From a virus: a stretch of 25,872 nucleotides of DNA. The position numbers and the translations under genes were made by a program. This document shows, one piece after another, positions 3,905 through 25,872 of the stretch (position 1 is its first letter; every line of letters begins with the position of its first letter). The notes below the pieces were generated by a model. The model made no database searches. It saw only the letters and a list, made by a program, of their open reading frames with translations, and was not told the origin of the DNA. The DNA lies in IMG/VR virus record IMGVR_UViG_3300042520_001718, positions 1 through 25,872 of that record, one strand, 5' to 3'.

Positions 3905-4638
3905 GGATTTTCTACAAACTTAAATTGAGTGGTCTTAAATGTCTTCTGAGCATCAGCAGCAGTCCAAATGAACTTCAATCTACCTTCGTAGGTGAATTCT
4001 GGTTTGCCTAGAGCTGTTACTGAAGAAGGAAGAGTGATGCTAACGACACTGGCAGTGTAAGTACACGTACCAGACAGGTGCATGGATGATGGATCGCCTG
4101 TGCGGTAGGCTGTGAACTCAATATCAGCATCATCAAAGTCGAGGCTACCCATGCTTGTGATAGGATCGCCTTCAGCATCGAGGATGGTTACTTCGATCTC
4201 ACCACTATCTGAGTCGTAGCTATCACCGACAATCAGTTCAGAAGGGAATCCAGAGATTGTACCAACATCAAGAACCGCAGCTGCTGTTAAAGCTACATTA
4301 GCCTGAGCTGTGCCGATGAGGTCTGTTTTAGCTTTAACAGCAAGCAGAGTAGTTTGAGAAGCATCACCAGCACTGGTAGTCGGGTATCCATCTAGAACTA
4401 GTGTGCTGCCGACCGCTAACCACCCATCCCGTACCGGCCCGACAGCATCATGCAACCGAGCCGACGCAATGTCGGAAATCGTTTCTGCGACGGTTGCAAC
4501 GAATCGCCCTGAAGACGCCGGAGACTCTGACAACGCATCGCCGCCTGTGTTTATCAACACGCCTGCGGTGGTGTAGAGGTAGAGCGTCAGGCCGGTTTCA
4601 CCAGTAAGTTCTGGTGCTGTCCATGCAATGTCAGCCAT
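3901..4638 (-). CDS. Putative phage structural or appendage protein
   Basis: A 245-aa protein without catalytic motifs, probably a virion structural protein given its place just before the terminase gene and after fibre-like genes. The first ~83 residues (MADIAWTAPELTGETGLTLY onward) have a small beta-rich pattern that includes GRFVATVAETIS. The second half (GEIEVTILDAEGDPI, then YEGRLKFIWTAADA) resembles an Ig-like or baseplate-type beta-sandwich. Codon choice changes within the gene: the N-terminal third (right of about 4390) is GC-rich like genes to its right, and the C-terminal part is AT-richer like the terminase and portal genes. This suggests recombination inside the gene. Exact function not recognised. 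Confidence 0.75.
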   Translation of the reverse strand: MADIAWTAPELTGETGLTLYLYTTAGVLINTGGDALSESPASSGRFVATVAETISDIASARLHDAVGPVRDGWLAVGSTLVLDGYPTTSAGDASQTTLLAVKAKTDLIGTAQANVALTAAAVLDVGTISGFPSELIVGDSYDSDSGEIEVTILDAEGDPITSMGSLDFDDADIEFTAYRTGDPSSMHLSGTCTYTASVVSITLPSSVTALGKPEFTYEGRLKFIWTAADAQKTFKTTQFKFVENP

Positions 4639-4795
4639 TGTCGGTCTCTGGTGTTGGTGGTGATTTGAGTGCGTCGATCAGTGACAAGGCAGTGGCACCA
4701 ATCTGCTGAGATTCTTCGAGTGACTTGCCCTGCTGCAGAGCAGCTGCACCGATGCGAACGAGCTGTTCAATCTGATTGATTTGTTCTGGTGTCAT
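4631..4795 (-). CDS. Small hypothetical protein, 54 aa
   Basis: Begins MTPEQINQIEQLVRIGAAAL and is predicted to be mostly helical and soluble, with a Pro-rich acidic tail. The ATG at 4795 overlaps the stop of the previous gene (ATGA), which favours it over an in-frame codon further upstream, as does the coupling pattern of the whole cluster. Its stop overlaps the start of the next gene. It could be a small virion or chaperone-like component. No family is recognised. Confidence 0.65.
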   Translation of the reverse strand: MTPEQINQIEQLVRIGAAALQQGKSLEESQQIGATALSLIDALKSPPTPETDNG

Positions 4796-18735: not shown

Positions 18736-19520
18736 CGCGTGTTCCTCACTGCCTTAACGATCTCGCTGACAGCTGCCTGAATTTCCATGAACGCCGTTTC
18801 CGACCAATACGGATTTCCGATCCGTTCGAGTTCATCACGTGCATCCGTCAATAACGCTTCACCGAATGCTTCGGCCTTCTCAATCTCCGGCTTAAGTGCT
18901 TCGGCACATCGCTGGTCAGCCGCCCGGCGTTCGGCTTCACGTGCTTCGATTTCGCGCCGTTCGTTCTCCGCTCGCAGTCGCTGCAATTCTTCGCGATCCC
19001 TGCGCAACTGTTCCTCTTCGATTTTTCGTGCTGCAGCTTTCTGAGTTTCCGCTGTCAGCAGTGCTTCAAAAAATCCGTCATCCATCACGTCCAGTGCGTT
19101 CAGATCGACGCCAACAACACCGATGGCAGCCAGTCGGTTAAGTCGACTTTGCAGCCGTTCACGCTTCTCGGCTTCCTTCTGCTGCTTTTCTTTCAGCCGT
19201 TCCGCTTCGTAGTTCTCTTCCTCTGCCGACAGCCTGCCTTCGATCGGTTCGATTTCGCTGATCAAGCGATTCATTTCGGCATTGATAGCTCGCTGATACT
19301 TCAACGCACCGGAATTCAGATCCTGAGCGCGTTTTTTAATCGCAATCCGAATTTTTTTGACCGTCTTGCGTGCTTCAGTGACGGCCTTGATGCCGACCGT
19401 TGCAACGGTCAGATTTCCAAATTCACGGACCTGAGCAATCGCAAGTTCATCCGGTCGAAACTCTGCCAGCGTCGAAACGATCAGAGCGTCAACTGGAGCC
19501 GGTGTTTCTTCAATAATCAT
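18732..19520 (-). CDS. Coiled-coil protein of the recombination block
   Basis: A 262-aa protein. The N-terminal 45 residues are a small domain; long charged helices follow (TEARKTVKKIRIAIKKRAQD, then a strongly heptad-like stretch rich in Glu, Arg and Ala from about residue 95 to 215). The C-terminus is helical. Proteins of this kind are common between ssDNA-binding and helicase genes in phages, sometimes called DUF1351-like, and may bridge DNA-repair factors. The ATG overlaps the upstream stop (ATGA). No enzymatic motif is seen. Confidence 0.7.
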   Translation of the reverse strand: MIIEETPAPVDALIVSTLAEFRPDELAIAQVREFGNLTVATVGIKAVTEARKTVKKIRIAIKKRAQDLNSGALKYQRAINAEMNRLISEIEPIEGRLSAEEENYEAERLKEKQQKEAEKRERLQSRLNRLAAIGVVGVDLNALDVMDDGFFEALLTAETQKAAARKIEEEQLRRDREELQRLRAENERREIEAREAERRAADQRCAEALKPEIEKAEAFGEALLTDARDELERIGNPYWSETAFMEIQAAVSEIVKAVRNTR

Positions 19521-21376: not shown

Positions 21377-21719
21377 TGGTCTTCTCTCCTTCTTTGAAAT
21401 CACTCAAAAACACTTCCACTTCACGACACTTCCATCTCTTTGTTTTCTTATTCTTCGCCCACCCATGCACGAAAATTCTGTGACCGTTTTCCACCCATTC
21501 TTTCGCCAATGGTGACGCTGAAATCTTTTTGATTCGTGCTGAGACATTGCTTCCGCTTGTCACCTGAAAAGCCATCATCTTCGGAGCGATGACAAGCAAA
21601 TCGATAAAACCGAACAGATCCTGCCGAATGCGTGCGAATGGGTTCCAGTGCTCGACAATGGCGACCGTCATTCCGCACTTACGAATCTGTGCAAGTGAAC
21701 GCTGAGTGGGTGAACTCAC
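21363..21719 (-). CDS. PD-(D/E)XK-like nuclease family protein
   Basis: 118 aa from GTG 21719 with GGAAGGA upstream; the start overlaps the CsrA stop (GTGA). The core DLFGFIDLLVIAPKMMAFQV, then TSGSNVSARIKKI, resembles small phage PD-(D/E)XK/VRR-type nucleases: Asp in 'FGFID' and the (E/Q)xT-type motif, here Q instead of the common E, with Lys downstream. The C-terminal WVENGHRIFVHGWAKN fits the family. A resolvase or repair endonuclease is likely. The Q substitution makes catalytic activity uncertain. Confidence 0.65.
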   Translation of the reverse strand: MSSPTQRSLAQIRKCGMTVAIVEHWNPFARIRQDLFGFIDLLVIAPKMMAFQVTSGSNVSARIKKISASPLAKEWVENGHRIFVHGWAKNKKTKRWKCREVEVFLSDFKEGEKTSEDC

Positions 21720-21883
21720 TTGCCATCCTTCCGGTCGTCTTGCACTTCCGCCCGCAAAACAGTTACATCTTTCGGAGCATGCACACCAACTCGAACACGC
21801 TCGCCTTTTATCTCCATAATCGTGACGACGATTCCGCCATCAATCACGATCGATTCGCCGACCTTACGACCCAGAACAAGCAT
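21716..21883 (-). CDS. csrA: CsrA-family RNA-binding regulator
   Basis: A complete 55-aa CsrA. It begins MLVLGRKVGESIVIDGGIVV and continues with VTIMEIKGERVRVGVHAP and DVTVLRAEV, matching the conserved family order, with the RNA-binding segments LVLGRKVGE and VRVGVHAPK both intact. GAAGGGA precedes the ATG by 6 nt. CsrA dimers bind GGA motifs in mRNA leaders and block or aid translation. A phage copy may reset host post-transcriptional control or regulate phage mRNAs. It overlaps the preceding 90-aa gene and the following nuclease-like gene, so it is part of the early/DNA-processing operon. Confidence 0.92.
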   Translation of the reverse strand: MLVLGRKVGESIVIDGGIVVTIMEIKGERVRVGVHAPKDVTVLRAEVQDDRKDGK

Positions 21884-22136
21884 TGCAGTTCCCTTCGCTA
21901 ATGACCTTGAGAAATCTGTGAGTAGCAGACATACTGACAGCAATCTGACCGCGTTTTCGCAGCACTGAAACAGCCACATTGGTGACTTCAGTTCCGTCCT
22001 CAAAACGCCACATGTCCGTCTTGCAGAAGTACGGCGCAAAGAATCGGCCGCTGTTTCGCAGTCGCTGTTTGCAGACGTGGCCAGCTCGTAGCTTTCGCAG
22101 CACTGCATCTGCTCCGAGTCCTTTCACTTTTGACAT
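21864..22136 (-). CDS. Hypothetical 90-aa protein
   Basis: Starts MSKVKGLGADAVLRKLRAGH at an ATG preceded by AAGGAAG at 5 nt, a strong ribosome site. The central MWRFEDGTEVTNVAVSVLRK segment looks like a small winged or beta-hairpin fold followed by a helix, possibly nucleic-acid binding (basic residues RKLRAG and LRKRGQ). It overlaps the csrA start by 20 nt. Function unknown. It is the first gene of the DNA-processing operon. Confidence 0.6.
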   Translation of the reverse strand: MSKVKGLGADAVLRKLRAGHVCKQRLRNSGRFFAPYFCKTDMWRFEDGTEVTNVAVSVLRKRGQIAVSMSATHRFLKVISEGNCNACSGS

Positions 22137-22961: not shown

Positions 22962-22977
22962 TTTACGATATGGAAAA
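22962..22977. promoter_or_regulatory. Operator-like site (site 2)
   Basis: TTTACGATATGGAAAA matches the perfect palindrome at 23008-23023 at 13 of 16 positions. It lies close to the predicted transcription start of the helix-turn-helix gene. Confidence 0.45.
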
Positions 22978-22986
22978 ATAAAATCA

Positions 22987-23014
22987 ATAATAAAGATTGA
23001 CGAGTGGTTTACAA
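22987..23014 (-). promoter_or_regulatory. Candidate promoter of the helix-turn-helix gene
   Basis: On the minus strand TTGTAA (23014-23009) and TATTAT (22992-22987) are separated by 16 bp. The -35 lies inside the palindrome at 23008-23023, so binding there should block it. Confidence 0.45.
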
Positions 23015-23025
23015 TATTGTAAAAA
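22997..23025 (+). promoter_or_regulatory. Candidate promoter of the cassette array
   Basis: TTGACG (22997-23002), 17 bp, then TAAAAA (23020-23025) on the plus strand. It faces the cassette genes and overlaps the palindrome at 23008-23023, so it may be repressed together with the divergent promoter. Confidence 0.4.
23008..23023. promoter_or_regulatory. Perfect 16-bp operator palindrome (site 3)
   Basis: TTTACAATATTGTAAA, a perfect palindrome, is placed between the divergent helix-turn-helix gene and cassette array and overlaps both candidate promoters. Confidence 0.6.
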
Positions 23026-23042
23026 TTGAGAGGTAACGATAC

Positions 23043-23249
23043 ATGATAGGATTGAACCCCATGACAACACCAACCCCCGCCCACCATATTCTCGCAGCTA
23101 CCGGCAACACCGATCATAGCCCATGCAAACGTTGTGATGGCCCAGGGCGAGAATTGCATGTGTGCCCGTTCGAGCAAGAAATCAACAACGATGAAACACC
23201 GTGCAACTGTTGCGCGAAATGTACTGACGATTGCAGCATGGAAATTTAA
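23043..23249 (+). CDS. Cassette 1: small Cys-rich protein
   Basis: 68 aa starting at ATG 23043, 9 nt after GAGAGG; an internal ATG at 23061 would give MTTPTPAHHILAA. The C-terminal half is rich in Cys: CKRCDGPGRELHVCP, then CNCCAKCTDDC, likely two zinc-binding knuckles. It is the first gene of the plus-strand array. Its internal start region (TPTPAHHIL) vaguely resembles the N-terminal tags encoded by the attC-like sites further on, so it may stand on a decayed site. Function unknown. Confidence 0.6.
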   Translation: MIGLNPMTTPTPAHHILAATGNTDHSPCKRCDGPGRELHVCPFEQEINNDETPCNCCAKCTDDCSMEI

Positions 23250-23253
23250 GTCC

Positions 23254-23343
23254 GCATAACGACGGCATTCACCGGGTTGCGGCCGGTGACTTTAACTCTT
23301 CAAGAACCGTGACCCGCAACTCCGGTGGAATGCTTTGTTATGC
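23254..23343. repeat. attC-like recombination site 1
   Basis: 90 nt with ends GCATAAC and GTTATGC, which are exact complements. The inner stem is GCATTCACCGGGTTGCGG with CCGCAACTCCGGTGGAATGC; the right arm has two extra unpaired bases (T and G), at the two places where the other three sites have theirs. It lies between cassettes 1 and 2. Confidence 0.8.
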
Positions 23344-23621
23344 CGCCTTGTCTGTGGTATCAGGAAGCATTGCCGGGCAAAGACTGTTGTAACGGACCTC
23401 CGAACTATCGGTGCGAACACTGCGAGCCAGACGGCTTCTGTGAGTCGTGCGATAGTTTCGAGGGTCGGGGCATAGAACAGATTTGTGAGTACGCTTCGAC
23501 GTGTGACGAATGCGGTGAACTGGTGCATCACGATCAGCAACGGATACCGCCGGACTCCAATGATCAACTCGGTTACTGCTGGCTGTGTCGTCCTGATTTG
23601 TTTGAGGATGAGTCGGCATAA
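23325..23621 (+). CDS. Cassette 2: Cys-rich zinc-knuckle protein
   Basis: Up to 98 aa. It starts at GTG 23325 inside the right arm of attC-like site 1, or at ATG 23340 at its end; neither has a good ribosome site, and an in-frame TGA lies just upstream. The body has many CxxC pairs (CCNGPP, CEHCEPDGFCESCD, CDECGEL, CWLCRPDLF), suggesting two or three zinc knuckles and a protein- or nucleic-acid-binding role. The gene's stop codon TAA is part of the R box of site 2 (GCATAAC). It resembles phage zinc-finger proteins in general style; no named family. Confidence 0.65.
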   Translation: MECFVMPPCLWYQEALPGKDCCNGPPNYRCEHCEPDGFCESCDSFEGRGIEQICEYASTCDECGELVHHDQQRIPPDSNDQLGYCWLCRPDLFEDESA

Positions 23622-23706
23622 CGCTATTTTCACCGGGCAACCGGGAAAGGAATTTCAATGTCAAAGAACGCTTTACCGGTTGCTCCGGTGCAAAATATTG
23701 TTCACA
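23616..23706. repeat. attC-like recombination site 2
   Basis: 91 nt from GCATAAC to GTTCACA. The stem TATTTTCACCGGGCAACCGG pairs with CCGGTTGCTCCGGTGCAAAATA (two parts: CCGGTTG, T-bulge region, CCGGTG, C-bulge, AAAATA). The left box supplies the stop of cassette 2, and the loop supplies AAAGGA and the ATG of cassette 3 (23658). The right outer box is only partly complementary to the left. Confidence 0.75.
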
Positions 23707-23987
23707 CGCCGGGACCGTGGGGCGTGGAACAAACGACTGTGAGCAATTGGATTGGACGCATGCGGGCAGATGGTTCCAAGGTGGAGTACATCGTAGCCCA
23801 TACCGACCGCGATTCACTGCGAGATGATGTTCTGGTCCGGAATGACGCGAACGCTCGGCTGATTGCGGCGGCTCCGGAACTGCTTGAGGCGTGCAAGGCA
23901 GGATTGAAAGCGTGCGAGGCTTCTGGCTTTTTGGGGCCAGTGGAAATGATGCAGCGTGCAATTTCAAAGGCTGAGTCAGTCGTGTGA
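23658..23987 (+). CDS. Cassette 3: phage-type 'HTPGPW...IAAAPELLEA' protein
   Basis: 109 aa. The ATG lies in the loop of attC-like site 2 behind AAAGGA, and the first residues (MSKNALPVAPVQNIVH) are encoded by the right arm of that site. The body starts HTPGPWGVEQ and ends with DANARLIAAAPELLEACKAG, the hallmark of a small protein family found in very many phages and prophages, of unknown function. The C-terminal half is helical. The stop TGA forms part of the R box of site 3. This shows that at least one cassette carries a typical phage gene. Confidence 0.82.
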   Translation: MSKNALPVAPVQNIVHTPGPWGVEQTTVSNWIGRMRADGSKVEYIVAHTDRDSLRDDVLVRNDANARLIAAAPELLEACKAGLKACEASGFLGPVEMMQRAISKAESVV

Positions 23988-24073
23988 ACGCTTGGCTTAA
24001 CAGGGTTGCGGACGAACGACTATGAAAGCAGAACACGGCATGACCGCAACTCCTGTTCAAGCCATTGTTACCC
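23983..24073. repeat. attC-like recombination site 3
   Basis: 91 nt from TGTGAAC to GTTACCC. GGCTTAACAGGGTTGCGG pairs with CCGCAACTCCTGTTCAAGCC; again the right arm has two extra bases (T and C). The left box supplies the stop of cassette 3. The loop carries ATG 24022. Confidence 0.75.
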
Positions 24074-24105
24074 TGCTTTTTCTGCGACTTTCACCAATCT
24101 GGTAA
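24022..24105 (+). CDS. Short leader frame starting in attC-like site 3
   Basis: 27 codons beginning MKAEHGMTATPVQAIVTLL; the start sits in the site's loop at the position used by cassettes 3 and 5, and the tag core TPVQ is conserved. It ends at TAA 24103, about 115 nt before the next real gene. It may be a leader peptide, or the remnant of a tagged gene whose body was lost or replaced. Confidence 0.35.
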   Translation: MKAEHGMTATPVQAIVTLLFLRLSPIW

Positions 24106-24221
24106 AATCTTTCCGAATAGTATTGTATTCGTGGGACGAATAGGCGATACTTCTTTTGTCGCAACGAAGAAGTTCAGCGAACGACTGACACGGGTTGTGC
24201 GACGCACACGGGAATAGAGCA
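24106..24221 (+). other. Structured leader of cassette 4
   Basis: About 115 nt without a gene. Three small hairpins follow each other: ATTCGT/ACGAAT (24127-24141, GGG loop), CTTCTT/AAGAAG (24150-24172), and TGTGC/GCACA (around 24196-24208). They form the leader of the gene starting at 24222 and may regulate it. Confidence 0.4.
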
Positions 24222-24518
24222 ATGATTAACTTCGACGGAATCATTATTGGAACAGAATCAGAAGTTGCTTCTTTCGGTTCAGATCTGTGCTGGAACTACA
24301 CCGATGGTGGAGTGGTGGTAAAGAATGGTGACGCAATCGCGTGTGAGTTTGCGACAAGATTTGCAAGCCGTGACGGCCTCCGCGTGATTGACGCGATCCG
24401 CAAGTCGTCTGAGGGGTTCCGGGTTCAGGTTAGTGATCACGGGTGCGGACGCAAAAGCGTGCAGGTTTTTAATGCAGATGGTTCACTGGCGGCTGATGCA
24501 AGCGTTGGTGAAGAATGA
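24222..24518 (+). CDS. Cassette 4a: hypothetical 98-aa protein
   Basis: Starts MINFDGIIIGTESEVASFGS at ATG 24222 with AGAG upstream; a TTG start 27 nt earlier is less likely. The product is a small alpha/beta protein with SSEGFRVQVSDHGCGRKSVQ near the C-terminus. No family is recognised. Its stop overlaps the ATG of the next gene (ATGA). It is the only cassette gene that does not begin in its attC-like site; a leader of about 115 nt intervenes. Confidence 0.6.
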   Translation: MINFDGIIIGTESEVASFGSDLCWNYTDGGVVVKNGDAIACEFATRFASRDGLRVIDAIRKSSEGFRVQVSDHGCGRKSVQVFNADGSLAADASVGEE

Positions 24519-24742
24519 AAGACCCGATGAGCTTGCGGCTCGGCCCTCTGGCCGGGCCGCTTTTGTTGCGATGTGAAAGCACTGGAGAAACACCCAGCGA
24601 CGTGCTACGGTTAGCACTGGCAAAAGAGCTGGGGCTTGAGCCTCCCGCGATGCCACAAGGCTTCGCGGCGATGTCGGAGAAGACTGCGGCAAAGGCTCGG
24701 AAGAAGTCTGCGAGAACGAGACGGGCCGCTAAGTCAGGGTAA
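24515..24742 (+). CDS. Cassette 4b: small RHH-like basic protein
   Basis: 75 aa. The segment ETPSDVLRLALAKELGL looks like the helix-turn-helix of a ribbon-helix-helix protein; the C-terminus is very basic (KTAAKARKKSARTRRAAKSG). It is coupled by ATGA to the gene before, the arrangement of antitoxin-like or regulator pairs. Codons 7-17 also form a strong GC hairpin followed by TTTT (about 24535-24565), which could act as a terminator for the upstream gene. The TAA stop is part of the R box of attC-like site 4. Confidence 0.6.
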   Translation: MKDPMSLRLGPLAGPLLLRCESTGETPSDVLRLALAKELGLEPPAMPQGFAAMSEKTAAKARKKSARTRRAAKSG

Positions 24743-24826
24743 CGACGGCATTCACCGGGTGTGAGGGAGCGACTATGAATACTGAAAACGGGCAACCGAA
24801 CACTCCGGTGCAATGCGTTGTTATCG
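24737..24826. repeat. attC-like recombination site 4
   Basis: 90 nt from GGGTAAC to GTTATCG. GCATTCACCGGGTGT pairs with ACACTCCGGTGCAATGC; the right arm again has two extra bases (T and C). The left box supplies the stop of cassette 4b. The loop carries GAGGGAG and the ATG of the next gene (24775). Confidence 0.8.
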
Positions 24827-25599
24827 TGCCTTCTGTTGTCAGTTTCGGCGCAGGAACGAACTCCACAGCGATTCTGCAGGGTATGCTGGAGCGTGGAGAA
24901 AAGCCGGACGCGATTTTGTTTGCCGACACAGGAGGAGAAAAACCGAAGACGTACCAGCACTTAGAACGCATGAAGCAGTGGTGCAAAGATGTCGGCTTTC
25001 CGGAAATGATCGTAGTGCGATACAGCGACACAAGTCGACATGCAAGCCTTGAGGATGAGTGCCACAACAATGGAACACTTCCCAGTAAGGCGTTTGGCTT
25101 TGGTGGATGTTCACAGAAGTGGAAACGATACCCAATGGATAAATGGGTGAAGGCGTGGCCTACCGCACAAGCGGCATGGGAAGCCGGAAACCGCGTGCAA
25201 AGAGTAATCGGAATTCACTACGGCGAAACACGGCGTGGAAAGATTCCGGACGATGCACAGTTCACATATCGATTCCCGTTGAGGGAATGGACGTGGGGAC
25301 AAGAGGAGTGTGAGGCCGCGTGCGTGCGTGCGTGCGGATACGTGCCTGAAAAGTCAGCGTGCTTTTACTGTCCAGCGATGCGAAAACCGGAAGTGCTCGC
25401 ACTGGCAAAAGAGCATCCAGAATTATTTCAGCGAGCGGTTGAAATGGAACAGAATGCACGAGAGGCAGGGGGGCTCGATGTTGTGAAGGGACTTGGGAGA
25501 CACTGGAGTTGGGAAAGCCTCGTTAAAGCGGACAACGCACAGATGAGATTGTTTGTTGAAGACGGTCTTTCGATGTGTGAAACGTGTGTCGATTGGTAG
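24775..25599 (+). CDS. Cassette 5: PAPS reductase-family (PP-loop) enzyme
   Basis: 274 aa. The ATG lies in the loop of attC-like site 4, 5 nt after GAGGGAG, and the first residues (PNTPVQCVVIV) come from its right arm. The PP-loop is VVSFGAGTNSTAILQGML, in place of the usual SGGKDS(T), followed by ILFADTGGEKPKTYQHLERM. Conserved Cys occur in GFGGCSQKWKRYP and KSACFYCPAMRKPE, as in phage PAPS-reductase-like or DndC-like proteins with an iron-sulfur or zinc site. Possible roles are sulfur metabolism or DNA/RNA thio-modification; which one cannot be told. It is followed by a strong terminator. No further attC-like site was found downstream. Confidence 0.82.
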   Translation: MNTENGQPNTPVQCVVIVPSVVSFGAGTNSTAILQGMLERGEKPDAILFADTGGEKPKTYQHLERMKQWCKDVGFPEMIVVRYSDTSRHASLEDECHNNGTLPSKAFGFGGCSQKWKRYPMDKWVKAWPTAQAAWEAGNRVQRVIGIHYGETRRGKIPDDAQFTYRFPLREWTWGQEECEAACVRACGYVPEKSACFYCPAMRKPEVLALAKEHPELFQRAVEMEQNAREAGGLDVVKGLGRHWSWESLVKADNAQMRLFVEDGLSMCETCVDW

Positions 25600-25627
25600 T
25601 CACGATAACTTTGAATTATCAGCCGCA

Positions 25628-25745
25628 GTGATATCCCATCCGACCCCGCAAAAACGCGGGGTTTTTATTCGCCCTGATGGAATATCACTCGCAGAGTCAG
25701 GTACATGATAATGCCTCGCAACTGATATTCAGAAATATCACTCGC
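25628..25745. repeat. Four ATATCAC-type repeats in inverted and direct order
   Basis: GTGATATCCCATC (25628-25640) and GATGGAATATCAC (25676-25688) are inverted copies around the terminator. AATATCACTCGC occurs exactly at 25681-25692 and 25734-25745, and a diverged inverted copy (CGCAACTGATATT) at 25718-25729 pairs with the last one. They could be binding sites of a regulator or replication protein. Confidence 0.5.
25644..25668 (+). terminator. Intrinsic terminator of the cassette array
   Basis: CCCCGC (25644-25649) and GCGGGG (25656-25661) form a stem with an AAAAAC loop, followed by TTTTTATT. It ends plus-strand transcription from the PAPS-reductase-like gene. Confidence 0.85.
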
Positions 25746-25872
25746 GCAGGATAAACACAGCGAGCCGCTGCGATTTCTCGTAACGGCTCTCCCGGTGCTG
25801 TGGTTGTGGCCTGCATGCCTCTACGACGGTCGGTGCTTTCAGGGTTGTGGCAGCTCTGCTCGTGAATCTGTG

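Follow-up and report, generated by a model that had tools for sequence, protein, structure and literature searches.

Integron attC sites and inverted gene cassettes in a phage genome: evidence for a mirror-image cassette array

The right part of a phage genome fragment very probably constitutes an integron cassette array in a phage-adapted 'mirror' layout, in which the genes are inverted relative to their attC sites; it would be an integrase-less member of its kind. The window, i.e., the whole stretch of DNA analyzed here, is the complete IMG/VR virus record IMGVR_UViG_3300042520_001718 of 25,872 bases, which is classed as linear and probably a fragment. Integrons are viewed as bacterial platforms with cassettes in which the gene stands ahead of attC. 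In a canonical cassette, the gene precedes an attC site that lies on the same strand.

An earlier note on this DNA had proposed an attC array within a phage and no integrase in the record. This proposal is supported by covariance-model matches, by the flanking phage genes, and by the lack of a match to the integron integrase profile TIGR02249. It did not cover the inverted orientation, the link of each attC site to its downstream gene, the attI-like end of the array, and the integrases of related phages.

Results

The array lies between phage modules

The left 22 kb of the window codes, on the minus strand, for portal, terminase, primase, helicases, a methyltransferase, a Sak4-like annealing protein and CsrA. 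A short plus-strand operon begins at 23.0 kb and holds all four elements. Upstream of the operon are a perfect 16-bp palindrome, TTTACAATATTGTAAA (23008–23023), which judging by its sequence is a possible operator, and promoter-like sites at 22962–23090, none of which gives a firm promoter call. A 68-aa Cys-rich ORF (23043–23249, plus strand) sits just 5' of the array and is not a cassette, as neither an attC site nor a complementary box precedes it.

A separately deposited twin contig, IMGVR_UViG_3300044644_001101, overlaps the window from position 19432 to its end with 99.95% identity over 6.4 kb, which amounts to three mismatches in this array-containing region. Rightward, the twin runs on into genes for the tail tape measure, head/capsid, protease, portal and terminase (packaging). 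With phage genes on both sides in window and twin combined, the array is placed between the replication and the structural modules. The terminase/portal end of the twin (L283:13007–13258) matches the window (4397–4648) in a 252-nt stretch only, at 90% identity, and this single match indicates that the phages are mosaic and that both records are fragments. A search for empty sites with the 937-aa protein 3' of the array matched only the twin and one contig whose sequence stops short of the array. The search for a host through prophage-like relatives gave no host call, as primase relatives were only distant (24–35% identity) and occurred in 12 of 392 Planctomycetota genomes; the attC family points to a Planctomycetota-like host. 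The CsrA-like regulator (PF02599, E = 1.4e-19) forms the C-terminus of a 130-aa phage ORF at 21716–22108 on the minus strand.

The four elements match the attC model

Four elements of 90–91 nt had been described, each bounded by NNNNAAC on the left and GTTNNNN on the right, folding into a long imperfect stem, and carrying two extra bases at the same positions of the right arm (plus strand). Our analysis confirmed each of these properties. The elements are located at 23254–23343, 23616–23706, 23983–24073 and 24737–24826; the ends of the middle two differ by a 1-nt choice of register (23706/23707 and 24073/24074). They show R''/R' boxes with inner stems, two extrahelical bases on one arm, and a match to the covariance model (CM) described below. 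A structural scanner written for this analysis (AAC / X / P6 / Q stem that has two single-base bulges / GTT) found only these four elements in the 25.9 kb, with scores of 16.1–21.5, and five shuffles of the window yielded one match at 12.2. On shuffled sequences of 83 loci (0.95 Mb), one match scored at least 14. The z-scores for folding as single-stranded DNA were –6.6 and –5.8 for sites 1 and 2, and –3.2 and –2.3 for the remaining two.

The CM was trained on 47 bacterial chromosomal attC sites aligned in the canonical strand. Chromosomal arrays had been collected from bacterial genomes by the same general pattern, without regard to strand, and most of the record titles name Planctomycetota. 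A CM search, which had been suggested as a check, matched exactly the four elements, all on the minus strand, with 75.7 bits (E = 5.9e-23) for site 1, 64.0 bits (E = 4.6e-19) for site 2, 67.0 bits (E = 4.8e-20) for site 3 and 67.8 bits (E = 2.5e-20) for site 4. The next-best match elsewhere in the window had an E-value of about 1, and an Rfam scan of the window revealed no family matches. As far as sequence alone can decide, the four elements are genuine attC sites of integrons. As a record that has two or more attC sites and lacks intI, the window falls into the CALIN class (attC clusters lacking an integrase).

The genes are inverted relative to their attC sites

All cassette genes of the window are encoded on the plus strand and all attC sites on the minus strand. 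Each attC thus stands 5' of its gene, which is not the arrangement of a canonical gene cassette. The strand assignment is based on the contrast between 64–76 bits on the minus and at most 23 bits on the plus strand (23.1 bits for site 1) and on the two extrahelical bases, which in all four sites occupy the same positions and mark the minus strand as the canonical top strand. When applied to resistance integrons of classes 1 and 2, the same CM recovered attC sites on the strand of the genes, as is correct, so the strand calls are meaningful; the scanner likewise placed nine of nine attC sites from two resistance plasmids (pSTM6-275 and R721) on the gene strand.

Further viral contigs were gathered by strand-blind DNA patterns and by primase similarity, and the coding strand of each inter-attC segment was scored with codon models trained on long ORFs. 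This scoring replaced an earlier longest-ORF count, which had left 50 viral cassettes ambiguous. Within the one attC sequence family covered by the sample, 121 viral cassettes were inverted, 4 canonical and 7 ambiguous, as opposed to 7 inverted, 170 canonical and 35 ambiguous among the (mostly Planctomycetota) chromosomal cassettes. All six resistance-integron cassettes scored from plasmids were canonical (0/6 inverted). Counted per locus, 50 of 51 viral loci were mostly inverted, and 55 of the 56 decided chromosomal loci were mostly canonical (6 ties). Of 44 further records, 6 had the primase of the window, and each of two distinct terminase families occurred in 6 of 50, indicating that the phages are not one lineage. 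We conclude that inversion is general in phage arrays with the attC family studied.

Cassettes are exchanged between phages at the AAC box

Four cassettes are common to different phage contigs with 98.8–99.7% identity. In all four pairs, the upstream attC is kept (0.79–0.99 identity) and the downstream attC is unrelated (0.55–0.63; background 0.59). The identity starts at the AAC box of the upstream attC, or within that attC, and ends at the next AAC box; two pairs diverge in the left half of the upstream attC. In chromosomal and plasmid arrays, where the genes point the other way, it is again this side of attC that moves along with the segment. The 4-nt cassette ends are perfectly complementary in 68% of the viral and 69% of the chromosomal cassettes. 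The paired arms of a single integrated attC show this in 14–19% (14% for the viral set) and shuffled controls in 4–9% (9% for the viral set). Such complementarity is the predicted mark of units that circularize and re-insert.

Contigs L298 (from position 1970) and L299 (from 1827) share 9168 nt at 99.87% identity; this stretch begins with the AAC of the closing box, on whose other side the cassettes are unrelated. This is a natural cassette exchange at the predicted point, and the two contigs form an ideal pair for testing recombination. For the array of the window itself, exchange is visible only indirectly, namely, through L003, L015 and L023, which carry its attI-like flank at 83–86% identity with other cassettes and are not near-identical phages. 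No recent cassette transfer between phage and chromosome was seen; the only similarity, of 32–39%, was to one chromosomal cassette. The natural recombinants and the gene neighborhood point to an IntI mechanism.

Not all shared cassettes kept an entire attC. In L003 (7078–7159) and L010 (2469–2548), which share cassettes, attC is kept in its right half only, and L208 and L228 have a gene in common but neither of its attC sites. Half-kept and replaced attC sites suggest that attC cores can also be swapped inside the hairpin.

Four cassette units in the window

The boundaries of the window cassettes follow the breakpoint rule derived from the shared cassettes and from L298/L299, and all four units, which read on the plus strand from AA^C to AA^C, have complementary ends. 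Unit 1 (23260–23621; ends GTTATGC / GCATAAC) comprises attC1 and a Cys-rich 98-aa ORF (23325–23621), with a GTG start within attC1 and a TAA stop that overlaps the next AAC box. Unit 2 (23622–23988), with the ends GTTCACAC / GTGTGAAC, consists of attC2 and a 109-aa ORF (23658–23987). This ORF matches phrog_1273 (E = 3.5e-15) from residue 16, the point at which the part encoded by attC is over. Unit 3 (23989–24742; ends GTTACCC / GGGTAAC) holds attC3, a leader (24022–24105) and ORFs at 24222–24518 and 24515–24742, the latter with a stop overlapping the AAC box. Unit 4 (24743–25608) is composed of attC4 and a 274-aa PAPS-reductase-like ORF (24775–25599) that matches phrog_424 (E = 1.2e-29) from residue 21 onward, again right behind the residues encoded by attC. 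The earlier note let the array end at 24826. This end was not borne out, as the fourth cassette closes at CGATAAC (25603–25609), the exact complement of GTTATCG (24820–24826), and is followed by an attI-like site and a hairpin.

In the viral cassettes overall, Pfam analysis of 50 proteins revealed seven N6/N4 DNA methylases, two C5 methylases and two GIY-YIG proteins as well as HNH nucleases, RusA, a dCTP-deaminase-like protein and the Lar anti-restriction protein. PHROGs added three PAPS-reductase-like proteins, and many cargo proteins had no match. Counter-restriction is a plausible, though not demonstrated, common theme of the cargo.

The array ends in an attI-like site followed by a terminator-like hairpin

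By canonical geometry, attI is expected where the array ends in the 3' direction of the plus strand. After the closing box, the window reads AACTTTGAATTATC at this place, and seven other phage contigs have AACTTTGAATTAT behind cassettes that differ. The attI-like site (25603–25625, minus strand) reads ctgataattcaaaG^TTATCG on the minus strand and is conserved beside different cassettes in eight phage contigs. The minus-strand motif AAT-N4/5-G^TT, which is short, was found at 19 of 24 listed array ends, related phages included, compared to 2.9% of GTT sites in general. It is common to bacterial attI sites beside intI, e.g., gtctaataacaaG^TTCGCC in L272. The window thus has a conserved attI-like R-site, a candidate attI, at the expected end of the array.

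An intrinsic-terminator-like hairpin (25642–25663, plus strand) closes the plus-strand operon and is kept together with the attI-like site in L003, L015 and L023. The genes of the window read toward the attI-like end. A simple consensus scan of positions 25603–25872 for a Pc promoter that reads from attI into the cassettes revealed no promoter-like site. In phages L031, L049, L208 and L210, direct and inverted repeats of 20–30 nt adjoin the attI-like site; they resemble repeats beside intI in the host locus L279 and are possibly accessory sites of the integrase.

Related phages encode an integron integrase

The earlier note had reported no integrase in the window. Indeed, TIGR02249 had no match in the 25.9-kb record, which hence lacks the intI of a complete integron, and the overlapping twin contig contains no integrase either. 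The enzyme would thus come in trans or from another part of the genome, or it has been lost. Among 78 screened phage records, all of them fragments, an integron integrase above the cut-off was present in only two, with 282 and 267 bits compared to the curated cut-off of 265. A dedicated search identified two more phage contigs with an integron integrase, resulting in four related contigs in total, L298 and L299 among them.

The two phage IntI proteins above the cut-off contain the catalytic residues, are 66% identical to each other and 28–38% identical to bacterial IntI, and have the Vibrio integron integrase 2A3V as the closest solved structure. All four contigs have the order cassettes, attI, intI on one strand, with intI directly past attI. 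The intI genes of L296 and L297 begin within about 100 nt of attI and are directed away from this site.

Translation probably starts inside attC

With attC 5' of its gene, the loop can hold a ribosome-binding site and a start codon. On the plus strand, the loops of attC2 and attC4 read AAAGGAATTTCAATG and GAGGGAGCGACTATG, respectively, each with a Shine-Dalgarno (SD)-like sequence and a start codon. Both sites code for about the first 15–18 residues, MSKNALPVAPVQNIV for attC2 and MNTENGQPNTPVQCVVIV for attC4. A relative of the fourth gene in L025, which is not part of a cassette and has its own ATG start, matches with 90% identity from residue 19 only. In attC3, the plus-strand ATG at 24022 opens merely a 27-codon leader, and a near-identical attC in phage contig L005 opens genes for 231 and 279 aa.

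An SD sequence plus ATG on the gene strand was present within 50 of 204 distinct viral attC sites versus 9 of 281 chromosomal ones (p = 8e-13). Shuffling of the loops gave an expectation of 9.4 for the 204 viral sites and of 7.5 for the chromosomal sites, which are thus at chance level. A plus-strand ORF spans 64 of the phage cassettes. In 48 of these it starts inside attC, in 26 its stop codon overlaps the AAC box that follows, and only half use ATG; the latter two proportions make this layout a tendency. These data suggest that translation of the cassette genes starts inside attC.

Discussion

In the model that we favor, attC leads each basic unit and its gene comes next, pointing the other way relative to attC than genes do in canonical bacterial cassettes. 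A phage promoter upstream would drive one-way reading through the cassettes up to the terminator at the attI-like end. Each incoming cassette would bring its own SD sequence and ATG, and the residues encoded by attC would become the N-terminus of the protein. IntI would fold the coding strand of attC and cut at AA^C, and cassettes would be inserted at the attI-like site or exchanged. The integrase may act in cis in some relatives; where it acts in trans, it may come from a host resembling Planctomycetota, a second phage infecting the same cell, or a part of the phage genome that lies outside the record. We infer that the sites are enzymatically active, that this phage has such a source of integrase, and that the inverted layout confers an advantage.

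We lean toward a broader view, in which phages, probably those of Planctomycetota, maintain an integron lineage of their own. This lineage would have its own specialized IntI and an attI where the operon ends (3'), and it would draw on a distinct pool of inverted cassettes, in which attC serves as translation start and N-terminal coding sequence. This system would trade accessory genes such as those for DNA methyltransferases, anti-restriction Lar, nucleases and PAPS-reductase-like proteins, and phages without intI would use it in trans.

The alternative that a piece of an ordinary host chromosomal integron was captured by, or misassembled into, a phage contig would explain why the attC family is that of Planctomycetota chromosomes and why the record has no integrase. 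We consider it largely refuted and give it next to no credence: host arrays of the same family are oriented oppositely (170 versus 7) to the viral ones (121 versus 4), dozens of other viral contigs are inverted likewise, the terminator and attI-like end are common to other phages, and the overlapping contig continues from the same array, at 99.95% identity, into tail and capsid genes. Misassembly and host contamination were rejected on the grounds of the twin contig, the orientation opposite to host arrays, and the array end shared among phages. The repeats could also be regarded as phage regulatory hairpins, i.e., as terminators or devices of translation control instead of recombination sites, because they are located at gene starts, about a quarter have an SD sequence plus ATG in the loop, and the operon layout implies that each repeat is transcribed. 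Yet their bulges and boxes fit the attC model with E-values of about 1e-20, the units move with breakpoints at the AAC box and have complementary ends, and some phages encode an integron integrase at the array end. A purely regulatory function, which we hold to be very improbable, was rejected for these reasons; the attC hairpins may nevertheless have an additional regulatory role.

That only 28–38% of the residues are identical between phage and bacterial IntI would leave room for an enzyme that uses attC in the opposite polarity, for which the genes would be 'canonical'. This reading has a very slim chance of being correct, as bacterial and plasmid arrays have their breakpoints at the box with the same position relative to the bulges, and attI is on the same side as in bacteria; the genes alone are flipped. 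We attach more weight, without considering it likely, to a decayed remnant whose sites were used in the past, in a phage that now has neither integrase supply nor recombination. The integrase is missing from both record and twin, and the array region of the latter differs by just the three mismatches mentioned above. However, the four sites still score high with the CM and have lost neither their complete boxes nor either of the extrahelical bases, the cassette ends are exactly complementary, and relatives with the same attI-like flank hold different cassettes. A mirror-layout cassette array without its own integrase gene remains our preferred reading.

Bacterial integrons trade antibiotic-resistance genes, and the phage array would be a set of similarly swappable cassettes with the genes facing the opposite way. 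Rule-breaking arrays in phages, together with the bacterial control of the same attC family, suggest that phages run a cassette economy of their own instead of merely ferrying cassettes. Rules that assume the order gene, then attC, would pair each attC in an inverted array with the wrong gene. It now becomes testable how, and in which orientation, an attC is added to a gene, how an attC hairpin can act as recombination site and translation start alike, and whether phages exchange counter-defense genes by site-specific recombination.

The presence of attC clusters in phages is by itself not new. The earlier note considered them little described, but attC clusters and integrons have been reported in 21 phages, e.g., Tetrasphaera phage TJE1, and of the six phage attC sites assayed in that study, IntI1 recombined five (Qi et al., 2023; PMC9892861). 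As presented in the available text of that report, these phages resemble ours in having attC clusters in their genomes, often without intI; inverted cassettes or translation starts inside attC are not reported in that text. TJE1, one of the three virulent phages tested there, differs in having canonical genes, with gene and then attC on the same strand. In the open-access literature, we found no description of inverted phage cassettes or of a mirror architecture, and what appears to be new is the inverted architecture with its consequences.

The sedentary chromosomal integrons of Planctomycetota have the attC family and a similar attI R-site (AAT-N5-G^TT) in common with the phage arrays, but their genes are canonical (170 versus 7), and SD plus ATG occurs in their attC sites at chance level. 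The class 1 and class 2 mobile integrons (pSTM6-275, R721) share the crossover box and the attC geometry, in which the two extrahelical bases are spaced six apart, whereas the gene orientation relative to attC is opposite in six of six cassettes scored. In the 'reverse' integrons of the Treponema type, intI is transcribed toward attI (PMC3607928), and intI and cassette genes share one direction, as they do in the phages. In L296 and L297, by contrast, intI points away from attI, so they are not reverse integrons of this type; the cassette genes are what flips. A few inverted cassettes with starts inside attC (7 of 212 segments scored as inverted) are found in the chromosomal arrays L093, L119 and L178, and these could be phage-derived.
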